Source: Nitrososphaerota archaeon
Lineage (GTDB): Archaea; Thermoproteota; Nitrososphaeria; Nitrososphaerales; Nitrosopumilaceae
Reading direction: 5' to 3'
Length of the DNA stretch: 34,807 nt
NCBI GenBank assembly: GCA_022564515.1
Contig: JADFLH010000011.1
Span: 1-34,807 of the forward strand
Position numbers and translations under genes: made by a program. The stretch's first letter is position 1, and every line of letters begins with the position of its first letter. Below are positions 3,142 through 33,068 of the stretch, one piece after another. Below the pieces are notes generated by a model. That model saw only the letters and a list, made by a program, of their open reading frames with translations, was not told the origin of the DNA and did no database searches.

Positions 3142-3234
3142 TGCTCCAGCCGGGAATTTCATCTTTTGAGAATTTGAACCCGGGATCACCGCCTTGAAAG
3201 GGCGGTATGCTTGACCGGTCTACACCACTGGAGC
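3142..3234 (-). tRNA. tRNA-Glu (UUC) with a 17-nt intron in the T loop
   Basis: Read on the minus strand the cloverleaf is complete: a 7-bp acceptor stem (GCTCCAG with CTGGAGC), D arm GTGT/GCAT, a 5-bp anticodon stem CCGCC/GGCGG enclosing CTTTCAA (anticodon TTC, Glu), and T stem CCGGG/CCCGG, with discriminator A at 3142. The T arm is interrupted. After T-loop residues TTCAAA a 17-nt segment (3156-3172) precedes the last loop T. Removing it leaves a standard 7-nt loop TTCAAAT and a 76-nt tRNA. The intron lies between positions 59 and 60, a non-canonical site. CCA is not encoded. Confidence 0.93.
3156..3172 (-). other. Non-canonical tRNA intron (position 59/60) with bulge-helix-bulge motif
   Basis: The precursor folds into a textbook bulge-helix-bulge. 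The outer helix is the T stem CCGGG/CCCGG, the central 4-bp helix is TTCA/TGAA, the 3-nt bulges are AAT and ATT, and the inner helix TCT/AGA closes on a CAAA loop. Cutting after the second base of each bulge, as archaeal splicing endonuclease does, frees exactly 17 nt and restores the 7-base T loop. The geometry is seen in the sequence; processing is inferred from the known enzyme. Confidence 0.88.
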
Positions 3235-15006: not shown

Positions 15007-16674
15007 ATGGGTCTGAATTATTACCAAATAAAAAAGCACGTACGCAAGACTCGAAAATTAGTTATCAGAGGCATCACGATCGCGAGGTCTGGCCATCCCG
15101 GCGGTTCATTTTCTATGGCTGAGATAATGGGAGTTTTGTTTAACAATTTTTTGCATTATGATCCAAAAAATCCACTATGGGAAGATCGTGATAGACTTGT
15201 TTTATCTAAAGGACATGCATCCCCCGGTCTTTTTTCTAACTTAGCAGTGGCTGGTTTTATTGAGGAATCCGAAATTGAAACCTTAAGAAAGTTTGGAAGT
15301 AGATTACAAGGTCATCCAGATTTGAGATGTCCTGGCGTAGAATTCTGTGGTGGATCTTTGGGAATAGGCTTATCATTTTCTGTAGGACTAGCGTTGGCGG
15401 CAAAAATTGATAACAAAAACCATCATATCTATACAATTATCGGAGATGGTGAATTAGATGAAGGTCAAGTTTGGGAAGCAGCAATGACAGCAGCAAAATA
15501 CAAAATTGATAACCTTACTGCAATCCTAGATAGAAATTTCATTCAACAAGATTCTTACACAGAAAAAATAATGCCACTTGATGAAGAGCTAATTGGTGAT
15601 GATCTTTCTGAGATGTGGAGGGATGCTTCACGATGGAAGACAGGTGACAAGTGGCGTTCATTTGGTTGGAATGTAATTGAGATTGACGGTCATAGAATTG
15701 AACAACTCAATGACGCTTTCTCAAAAGCAACCTCAACTAAAGGCTTGCCTTCCATTATCATCGCAAGAACGATCAAAGGAAAAGGCGTTGAACACATGGA
15801 GGATAATCCAAAATGGCATGGACTGGCTCCTGATCCTGATATCGCACCAATAATAGATCTAGAACTTGACAGCCAGTTCATGATCGCGCCATCTATTATC
15901 GCAGGTGATATGACAAATTTAGAAAACGAGGTAAAACGATGTGTTCATGGACGAGCCGATTACATACATCTTGACGTGATGGATGGTCAATTCGTGCCAA
16001 ACACAACATTTGATCATAATAAAATCAAAGAGCTAAGGCCACTTACAGTTATCCCTTTTGATGCTCATTTAATGATTAACGAACCAGTAATACACATACA
16101 AGATTACTTGGATGCTGGAAGTGACATTATTACAGTTCATACTGAGGTCTGTGATGAGTCAAGCTTTGGGGAAATTCATGACAAACTAAAACAAAACCAA
16201 GTTGGTATTGGTCTTGCAATTAATCCTGATACAGAACTTCCAGAATGGTCATTCAAGTTCTTACAAACGATTGATCAGTTAATTGTTATGTCAGTCATTC
16301 CAGGAAAATCAGGTCAAAAATACATTGAGTCTACACACGAGAAAATGGCAAGAGTTGTTAAGATCTTAAATGAACATAAATTCAAAGGCTATATCGAGGC
16401 TGACGGTGGTGTAGTATTGGATAATGTAGGGACCTGTTACAATGATGGGGCGCGAGCTTTTGTTGGCGGAAGTGCAATAATTGGTCAGAATGATGTTAGA
16501 GGTGTGATTAGACAATTTCGACTAGTTATTTTACAAGAAAGAAGACGAGCTCTTCTGCAAAAAGCTTATGAGCTTGGTGGAATTGAGCTTGTCAACAAAT
16601 GGATTGATTTGCATTTAGTTGGTGACAAAAAGAATCAACTAATTAGAATGGCAAAGGAGACACGATACATTTGA
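15007..16674 (+). CDS. Fusion: transketolase N-terminal domain + ribulose-phosphate 3-epimerase
   Basis: One uninterrupted 555-residue frame holds two enzymes. Residues 1-285 are the thiamine-diphosphate domain of split transketolase: SGHPGGS (28-34), SKGHASP (67-73), GDGELDEG (146-153) and Asn177 of the ThDP motif. Residues 292-507 are a full ribulose-phosphate 3-epimerase barrel: MIAPSII start, HLDVMDG (His321, Asp323), DAHLM (His354), VIPGKSGQK (431-438) and EADGG (Asp466), so its metal and catalytic residues are kept. A basic helical tail (508-555) follows. The transketolase C-half is the next gene, overlapping by three bases. Together they would interconvert Xu5P, R5P and Ru5P. The ATG at 15007 is the start, with an AT-rich stretch before it. 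Confidence 0.92.
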   Translation: MGLNYYQIKKHVRKTRKLVIRGITIARSGHPGGSFSMAEIMGVLFNNFLHYDPKNPLWEDRDRLVLSKGHASPGLFSNLAVAGFIEESEIETLRKFGSRLQGHPDLRCPGVEFCGGSLGIGLSFSVGLALAAKIDNKNHHIYTIIGDGELDEGQVWEAAMTAAKYKIDNLTAILDRNFIQQDSYTEKIMPLDEELIGDDLSEMWRDASRWKTGDKWRSFGWNVIEIDGHRIEQLNDAFSKATSTKGLPSIIIARTIKGKGVEHMEDNPKWHGLAPDPDIAPIIDLELDSQFMIAPSIIAGDMTNLENEVKRCVHGRADYIHLDVMDGQFVPNTTFDHNKIKELRPLTVIPFDAHLMINEPVIHIQDYLDAGSDIITVHTEVCDESSFGEIHDKLKQNQVGIGLAINPDTELPEWSFKFLQTIDQLIVMSVIPGKSGQKYIESTHEKMARVVKILNEHKFKGYIEADGGVVLDNVGTCYNDGARAFVGGSAIIGQNDVRGVIRQFRLVILQERRRALLQKAYELGGIELVNKWIDLHLVGDKKNQLIRMAKETRYI

Positions 16675-17648
16675 CAACCGTAGAGCAAAAACTAACCGAT
16701 ATGAGAACAGAATACGGAAAAACCCTCATTGAAATTGGAAAAGAAAATCCAAATGTTGTTGTTTTAGGAGCAGACACTACCGATTCACTAAAAACGGCGG
16801 CATTTGGAAAAGAATTTCCTAATAGATTCTTTAATGTTGGAATCGCAGAAGCTGATCTGGTCTCAGTAGCTGCAGGACTCGCAATAGAGGGAAAAGTCGC
16901 ATTTGCAAGCACATATGCAATTTTTGTCCCAGGCAGAGTTGTAGATCAGATAAGAAACGCAATTGCATATCCCTCTAGAGGTGACAAAATGGGACTAAAT
17001 GTAAAACTCGTGGTGTCCCATGGGGGATTAACTGTTGGTGCAGATGGAGGATCACACCAACAAATTGAAGATATTGCAATAATACGTGCAATTCCAAACA
17101 TGAAAGTTTTGATTCCAGCTGACACAGTGACGGTAAATAATCTTACGTGGATCATTTCACAAAAGTATGGCCCATTCTATATGAGGATGGCTCGCAGTAA
17201 GACACCAATCGTTCATGAAGATTCACAAGAGTTTGAAATTGGAAAAGGAATTACACTAGTAGACGGTTCTGATTGTACAATTGCATCCTGTGGAATAACA
17301 GTAAATATGGCATTAGAGGCAGCTGAATCATTAAAGCAGGAAGGAATCTCTTGCAGAGTAATTGATATATTTTCAATAAAACCAATTGATATAGACCTAC
17401 TTGAAAAGGCTGCTCGGGAAACTGGCGCAATCATAACATGTGAAGAACACAACATTATGGGTGGAATGGGTTCTGCAGTTGCCGAAGTCGTTTCAGAACA
17501 CTACCCTGTTCCAATCAAGAGGATTGGAGTACAGGACATGTTTGGAGAATCATGCAGAGACAAAGAAATTCCGCTTTTGCTTGAAAAGCATGGAATATCA
17601 TCTATTAATATAGCAAAGAGTGTGAAAGCGATAAGGAGTAAAAAGTAA
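16671..17648 (+). CDS. Transketolase, C-terminal subunit
   Basis: A 325-residue protein with the pyrimidine-binding and C-terminal domains of transketolase. NVGIAE (55-60) carries the conserved catalytic glutamate. The loop [23 protein letters not shown] and the C-terminal [15 protein letters not shown] complete the pattern. The TTG start at 16671 overlaps the upstream stop (TTGA), typical of translational coupling. The ATG at codon 11 is an alternative. It must pair with the N-terminal domain of the preceding fusion protein to form the active site. It is followed with a one-base overlap by the transaldolase gene. Confidence 0.93.
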
Positions 17649-31269: not shown

Positions 31270-31833
31270 ATGGCACAGATGCCCGCATTAGTACCAAAAG
31301 AAGTCGAGATTCAACGACTAAAGAAAATCTGGCTTATCATTATTGCTATGGGATCCGTTGCAGCATCAGTCGAAGTAGACAACTTCGTCGATGGTTCTCT
31401 GCATCAAACATCTATCAGAGATAGTGCATTTACACCAGCACACTGGTGGCTGTACAGTCACTTTGTGGCTCTGCCATTGGGCTGGGGTATGGTCGCAATC
31501 TATGATAGGAGGGTACCAATTCTTAGAGGTCCAAACAACTCGATGAACACCGGCTTGAAGATGACCATCCTAGGTTACCTTGCTACAATGTTCACAATTG
31601 GAATCAATGAGATGTGGCACTTCTGGTTTGTAGAGGAAATCTTTGCAGTACCAAACCATTGGATGTTCAACATGGGTGTAGTTGTAGCCTTTATAGGCGC
31701 TCTAGCATATGTCGTAAGAGTATATGCAAGACTGATTGAACTTGGCGCAGAAACACCAGGTGAGAACCCCTACATCGCTGAAATGTACAAGATGGCCTTA
31801 GAAGGCAAATTGTACAGTAGATCCATTCCATAG
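31270..31833 (+). CDS. amoC: Ammonia monooxygenase subunit C
   Basis: A 187-residue membrane protein with about five to six helices. Asp41-x3-His45-x12-His58 reproduces exactly the spacing of the CuC ligands of pMMO (Asp156, His160, His173), so the metal site now favoured as catalytic in this superfamily is intact. The motif lies in VDNFVDGSLHQ and FTPAHWW. The start ATG is preceded by a TATA box, and the gene is first on the plus strand of the amo cluster, followed by amoX and amoA in separate, closely spaced units. Confidence 0.97.
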   Translation: MAQMPALVPKEVEIQRLKKIWLIIIAMGSVAASVEVDNFVDGSLHQTSIRDSAFTPAHWWLYSHFVALPLGWGMVAIYDRRVPILRGPNNSMNTGLKMTILGYLATMFTIGINEMWHFWFVEEIFAVPNHWMFNMGVVVAFIGALAYVVRVYARLIELGAETPGENPYIAEMYKMALEGKLYSRSIP

Positions 31834-31850
31834 GCAAAAGTGTACAAGCA

Positions 31851-31867
31851 CTTTTTTTCTTTTTTTA
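31851..31867 (+). terminator. Poly-T terminator after amoC
   Basis: A nearly uninterrupted run of T (seven, then C, then seven) 18 bases past the amoC stop, the usual archaeal termination signal. It suggests that amoC can end separately from amoX. Confidence 0.6.
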
Positions 31868-31941
31868 TACAAAAAATATAGTTCGTGCTAGGCCATTCAG
31901 ATAAGAAAGATTTTTAAAGATTCTGACGTGTATTAACGCGG

Positions 31942-32304
31942 ATGACTCTCCCGAGAGGATTTGGTACTGGCGGAGCCAGCGGAGAAGGTAGTGCTGATGT
32001 TGAAAGAATGATTGGCCGTCGTGTAGAACACATGGGGGGTCTTATTACGTTATCATACATTGCGGCATGGCTTGCTACTTTTGGCGGTACAGCAGCAGGA
32101 TATTTCTATTATCCATGGGCTTATCCAACCAATAGCGGTCACTTTGCCTTTATTGTACTGACGATTATAGAGTCAATTGGATACCTATTTTGTATGAAAG
32201 TAACGCAGGAAGGCTCTAGAGTTAGTACTAATGGTCTAATTGCTGGAACTATGGGGATTATTGCGATATTAACCGTCCTGATATCCACATTCGTAGGGTT
32301 CTAG
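31942..32304 (+). CDS. amoX: Ammonia monooxygenase subunit X
   Basis: A 120-residue protein specific to ammonia-oxidising archaea, encoded between amoC and amoA as in other group I.1a genomes. A polar N-terminus of about 30 residues (GTGGASGEGSADVERMIGRR) precedes three membrane helices (about 37-58, 66-84 and 96-118). AmoX is an integral part of the archaeal AMO complex. TTTTTAAAGATT just before the gene (31911-31922) can serve as its TATA region. Confidence 0.92.
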   Translation: MTLPRGFGTGGASGEGSADVERMIGRRVEHMGGLITLSYIAAWLATFGGTAAGYFYYPWAYPTNSGHFAFIVLTIIESIGYLFCMKVTQEGSRVSTNGLIAGTMGIIAILTVLISTFVGF

Positions 32305-32385
32305 AAGAAAACCCCTTTTGGTATTTTTTAAATTTTTCATTTTAGACGCAAAAATATAATATTCGAACAGGATATTTCACTAAAA

Positions 32386-32394
32386 TTATAAATA
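32386..32394 (+). promoter_or_regulatory. TATA box of amoA
   Basis: TTATAAATA lies 24-32 nt before the TTG start of amoA (32418), placing transcription start close to or at the start codon and supporting that codon. Confidence 0.6.
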
Positions 32395-32417
32395 CTGACC
32401 ACATATTCTACACATCA

Positions 32418-33068
32418 TTGGTCTGGCTTAGACGAAGTACTCACTACTTGTTCATTATAGTAGTTGCGGTAAACGGAACTCTGCTTACAATTAATGCAGG
32501 TGACTATATTTTCTACACGGACTGGGCTTGGACTTCGTTTGTAGTATTTTCAATATCACAAACATTGATGCTTACGGTAGGCGCAGTGTATTATCTGACA
32601 TTTACTGGCGTTCCAGGAACAGCAACGTATTATGCATTAATCATTACAGTGTATACATGGGTTGCAAAAGGTGCATGGTTTGCACTCGGATATCCATATG
32701 ACTTTATCGTTGTACCAATATGGTTACCATCAGCAATGTTGCTTGATCTGGCATATTGGGCTACAAAGAGAAACAAGCACTCACTAATTCTGTTTGGCGG
32801 AGTATTGGTAGGTCTGTCGTTACCATTGTTTAACATGGTAAATCTGTTAACAATTGCAGACCCGCTAGAAACGGCATTCAAATATCCACGGCCAACATTG
32901 CCACCATACATGACGCCAATAGAACCGCAAGTTGGAAAATTCTATAATAGCCCGGTTGCGCTGGGTGCTGGTGCTGGTGCAGTATTGGCCGTTACGATGG
33001 CAGCGCTAGGATGTAAGCTAACAACGTGGACGTATAGATGGATGGCCGCTTGGTCAAAGTGGGACTAA
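32418..33068 (+). CDS. amoA: Ammonia monooxygenase subunit A
   Basis: A 216-residue archaeal AmoA, the standard length, with about six membrane helices and the well-known start VWLRRSTHYLFI. It is the marker gene of ammonia-oxidising archaea. The first codon here is TTG, where nearly all archaeal amoA genes have ATG (context CATTGGTC instead of AATGGTC). No in-frame ATG lies near, and a TATA box about 25 nt upstream fits the TTG. The C-terminal conserved stretch with WMAAWSKWD is intact. Last gene of the amo cluster. T-poor sequence follows, so its terminator is not clear. Confidence 0.98.
   Translation: MVWLRRSTHYLFIIVVAVNGTLLTINAGDYIFYTDWAWTSFVVFSISQTLMLTVGAVYYLTFTGVPGTATYYALIITVYTWVAKGAWFALGYPYDFIVVPIWLPSAMLLDLAYWATKRNKHSLILFGGVLVGLSLPLFNMVNLLTIADPLETAFKYPRPTLPPYMTPIEPQVGKFYNSPVALGAGAGAVLAVTMAALGCKLTTWTYRWMAAWSKWD

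Follow-up and report, generated by a model that had tools for sequence, protein, structure and literature searches.

Does the interrupted tRNA-like sequence on the minus strand at positions 3142–3234 of the window (the whole stretch of DNA analyzed, 34,807 nt) represent a functional tRNA-Glu(UUC) gene with an intron spliced out of its T loop, a pseudogene, or a gene whose mature product keeps the additional nucleotides? We addressed this question through the layout of the gene, the geometry of the insert, the splicing genes of the genome, and the orthologous loci of related archaea.

Layout and detection of the tRNA-Glu(UUC) gene

Reading of the sequence and an ARAGORN call on the joined exons placed a 93-nt tRNA-Glu(UUC) precursor gene at 3142–3234. 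On the minus strand, GCTCCAG...CCGGG TTCAAA is followed by the intron TTCTCAAAAGATGAAAT and then by TCCCGG CTGGAGCA. The anticodon loop CTTTCAA is intact, and the insert lies elsewhere, at 59/60. The features are as follows, with their basis in brackets.

3142–3234, minus strand: tRNA-Glu(UUC) gene, 93-nt precursor, no encoded CCA (sequence, sensitive tRNA search, exon joining)
3173–3234, minus strand: 5′ exon, 62 nt, from the acceptor to position 59, with the 3′ end ...GGGTTCAAA (sequence, exon joining)
3156–3172, minus strand: intron, 17 nt, site 59/60 (sequence, exon joining, intronless orthologues)
3142–3155, minus strand: 3′ exon, 14 nt, TCCCGGCTGGAGCA (sequence, exon joining)
3175–3178, minus strand: 5′ strand of the central helix, TTCA, exon positions 54–57 (sequence, comparison of loci)
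3158–3161, minus strand: 3′ strand of the central helix, TGAA, within the intron (sequence, comparison of loci)
3172–3174, minus strand: 5′ bulge AAT, with cleavage expected at 3173/3172 (geometry; cut predicted from the archaeal bulge-helix-bulge [BHB] rule)
3155–3157, minus strand: 3′ bulge ATT, with cleavage expected at 3156/3155 (geometry; cut predicted from the same rule)
3162–3171, minus strand: inner hairpin of the intron, TCT-CAAA-AGA (sequence, fold, comparison of loci)

ARAGORN made no call on the unspliced gene, whether or not introns were allowed; with introns allowed, it misses a gene interrupted in the T loop because it models anticodon-loop introns only. When the 17 nt were excised, the same program called a perfect 76-nt tRNA-Glu(ttc) with a complete cloverleaf and all stems intact. 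Over the whole window, ARAGORN reported a tRNA-Met alone, and Rfam at the gathering cut-off reported that tRNA-Met and a 5S rRNA alone. In a sensitive whole-genome search with the tRNA model, the precursor scored 17.5 bits against a cut-off of 29 bits. The first-pass annotation had given the coordinates, strand, anticodon UUC, intron length of 17 nt, and site 59/60, all of which agree with the sequence and with ARAGORN after excision. It had also held that the gene is unreadable as a standard tRNA until the 17 nt are removed and that standard scans can miss it, and the searches bear out both statements. In practical annotation terms, neither ARAGORN nor Rfam at its cut-off detects this essential tRNA of the genome.

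The assembly comprises 1.51 Mb in 80 contigs and is approximately 95% complete. Its tRNA inventory was compiled from Rfam tRNA matches and ARAGORN, and may be incomplete for tRNAs with several introns. The whole-genome search found one other tRNA-Glu gene, an intronless CUC gene (G000:C29:3720-3795). The possibility of another intact tRNA-Glu(UUC) gene had been raised in the first-pass annotation; none was found in the whole-genome search, although a second copy could be missing because the assembly is approximately 95% complete and in 80 contigs.

Elsewhere in the window, translations read by eye showed three membrane-protein frames at 31270–33068 (plus strand) that resemble ammonia monooxygenase subunits, and because of these frames the organism is called an ammonia oxidizer. 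A 555-aa ORF at 15007–16674 (plus strand) apparently joins the N-terminal half of a transketolase to a ribulose-phosphate 3-epimerase-like domain, and the C-terminal half of the transketolase appears to follow at 16671–17648.

Splice motif and splicing machinery

The precursor reads CCGGG-TTCA-AAT-TCT-CAAA-AGA-TGAA-ATT-CCCGG, which is a complete hBHBh′ motif. Its outer helix CCGGG/CCCGG is the T stem, its central helix TTCA/TGAA has 4 bp, and its inner helix TCT/AGA is closed by the loop CAAA; the two 3-nt bulges, AAT and ATT, lie on opposite strands on either side of the central helix. In archaeal splicing, each bulge of a BHB motif is cut after its second base. Applied to both bulges, this rule gives a junction at exactly 59/60.

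In the proposed splicing pathway, the outer helix would be supplied by the T stem, and the central helix would form when exon bases 54–57 of the T loop (UUCA) pair with UGAA of the intron. The tRNA-splicing endonuclease, probably of the alpha2-beta2 type, would be expected to cleave after the second base of each 3-nt bulge. Ligation of the two exons by RtcB would then yield the 76-nt tRNA, and RtcB might also circularize the 17-nt intron.

The BHB motif in the insert is more than chance. Among shuffled inserts, 1.3% had a 4-bp central helix and 0.06% had the whole motif; the corresponding values for random 17-mers from the window were 1.9% and 0.11%. In the minimum-energy fold of the precursor computed by RNAfold, the central helix is open and the T arm forms a stable extended structure. 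The case for the central helix is therefore made by its geometry and by covariation rather than by computed stability.

Two genes of the EndA family, encoding proteins of 181 and 194 aa, and a gene for the RtcB ligase are present in the genome. The best matches of the 181-aa protein are splicing endonuclease chains from Crenarchaeota (2cv8, E 2e-42; 3p1z chain B, E 1e-40), and the conserved region with FAVY, HAPYLV, and K is retained in the alignment; the 194-aa protein is homologous and is without the HAPYLV motif. Two such genes fit an endonuclease of the alpha2-beta2 type, which has been reported for Thaumarchaeota (PMC4090602), and into which the two subunits may assemble.

Conservation of the intron and alternative readings

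We searched 151 genomes of the same family (Nitrosopumilaceae) with the query, of which 145 matched, and read representative loci. tRNA-Glu(UUC) carries a T-loop intron of 14–22 nt at the same site in 19 of the 22 sampled genera. The intron is absent from the sampled members of genera g4 and g19 and from some members of g11 and g17, and no tRNA-Glu(UUC) gene was recovered for g13 in the family genome search. In g11 and g17, closely related orthologues with and without the intron form a small natural series in which the gain or loss of a T-loop intron can be studied. In the intronless relatives, the T loop of tRNA-Glu(UUC) is exactly the predicted spliced form.

All four central pairs were kept in 37 of 38 distinct intron-bearing T-arm precursors, a count to be read with the fact that loci L136–L251 were chosen by a pattern requiring TGRAA before the T stem, which makes their central helix partly a matter of construction, and that the independent covariation evidence comes from the BLAST-selected loci up to L110 only. 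The sole exception (L289) belongs to another family, and the central helix was kept in every intron-bearing locus of Nitrosopumilaceae examined. Across the 38 precursors, 99% of the central-helix cells were paired, compared with 20–54% when the partner strand was slid by 1–3 nt. In five precursors, the change of the exon TTCA to TCCA was coupled to a compensatory change of the intron TGAA to TGGA. The inner helices vary as well (e.g., TCT/AGA to GCC/GGC).

On account of the covariation, the precise absence of the intron in relatives, and the splicing genes in the genome, we read the insert as a 59/60 BHB intron of tRNA-Glu. The locus is almost certainly a functional tRNA-Glu(UUC) gene with a short protein-spliced intron, carried by a Nitrosopumilaceae-like ammonia oxidizer; its expression, cleavage, and ligation are predicted from sequence. 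The same three lines of evidence support the first-pass reading of a tRNA-Glu T-loop intron with a complete BHB; its full splicing geometry matches the precursor in every element.

A tRNA-Glu pseudogene with an unspliced T-loop insertion would agree with the failure of ARAGORN to find a gene and with the raw score of 17.5 bits, below the model cut-off. However, this is the sole UUC gene found in the assembly, every stem is intact after excision, and most of the family carries the insert at the same position, with compensatory changes, so that we regard a pseudogene as extremely improbable. The stable extended T arm of the minimum-energy fold would suit a mature RNA that retains the insert and has an enlarged T loop. 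Such a loop should not, by established tRNA structure, make the normal D-loop/T-loop contact; moreover, what is conserved is precisely the motif of a splice substrate, and the T loop is normal in relatives that lack the insert. To retention we assign a negligible probability. Conservation and covariation led us to reject both alternatives in favor of the spliced intron.

The comparison was extended by scanning named genomes for the pattern of a T-loop intron; among the matches listed, the re-joined exons read as tRNAs in many records. Those matches include tRNA-Glu(UUC) introns of Nitrosopumilus, Nitrosarchaeum, Nitrosotalea, and Cenarchaeum, which share gene, position, and motif with the present one, are 14–16 nt long, and differ in the sequence of the inner helix and loop. 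Also among the matches listed, the 59/60 design occurs in other isotypes, including Gly, Arg, Ala, Asp, His, Ile, Leu, and more, in Micrarchaeota, Woesearchaeota, Nanoarchaeota, Marsarchaeota, Thermoplasmatota, and others. In other families of the same order, tRNA-Glu T-loop introns were found at L289, L294, and L295, while most other sampled members of the order or class lack one (L284–L288, L290–L293, and L296). The inserts at L289, L295 (G188), and L294 (G206), in tRNA-Glu(UUC) or (CUC), differ in sequence, and some of their central helices are less regular.

Relation to known introns and observations on other tRNA genes

Site 59/60 is among the listed noncanonical positions of archaeal tRNA introns, and the introns reported there agree with ours in position, BHB, and expected excision by EndA, differing in isotype and species alone (PMC4090602). 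For Thaumarchaeota, tRNAscan-SE 2.0 has a dedicated intron model, and 107 noncanonical introns, from the same phylum as ours and of the same intron class, were counted in the genomes studied, apparently with no separate mention of tRNA-Glu(UUC) (PMC8450103). The tRNA-Glu of Sulfolobus tokodaii likewise hosts noncanonical BHB-like introns, which EndA cleaves in vitro, but these lie in the D arm rather than the T loop (PMC4307357). T-arm introns have also been reported in Caldiarchaeum (PMC3293823). We found no paper naming the exact tRNA-Glu(UUC) 59/60 intron in the open-access literature, and one may still have been published. The intron is real and well supported but ordinary, and adds one more case, conserved in its family, to a class already known. 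Site 59/60 is already listed, most of the sampled genera of the family carry the intron, and tRNAscan-SE models such introns for Thaumarchaeota. Its interest lies in the presence of the same intron throughout most of an abundant archaeal family; knowledge of tRNA splicing is unchanged.

In genera with a genomic C at T-loop position 55, the matching G of the intron is kept, and part of one genus has C55 without the intron. It is very unlikely that removal of the intron from the apparently sole UUC gene is regulated and that the mature tRNA itself was shaped by pairing of its T-loop bases 54–57 with the intron.

Position 55 of the T loop is normally a near-universal U. C55 was seen in the tRNA-Glu(UUC) of g2, g17, and g22, both with the intron (L079, L080, L083, L107, and L108) and without it (L097, L098, L100, and L102). 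A TCC T loop also occurs in tRNA-Lys(UUU) of the genome under study (L004), in tRNA-Lys and tRNA-Thr of G017, and in the apparent tRNA-Gly(GCC) of G001 and G024. Further tRNA genes of the genome under study (L039, L040, L041, and L029) look interrupted at noncanonical sites; among them are Gln(TTG)-like and Arg(CCT)-like genes with D-arm inserts, a gene that seems to carry two introns, and a Val(CAC) gene containing additional nucleotides.
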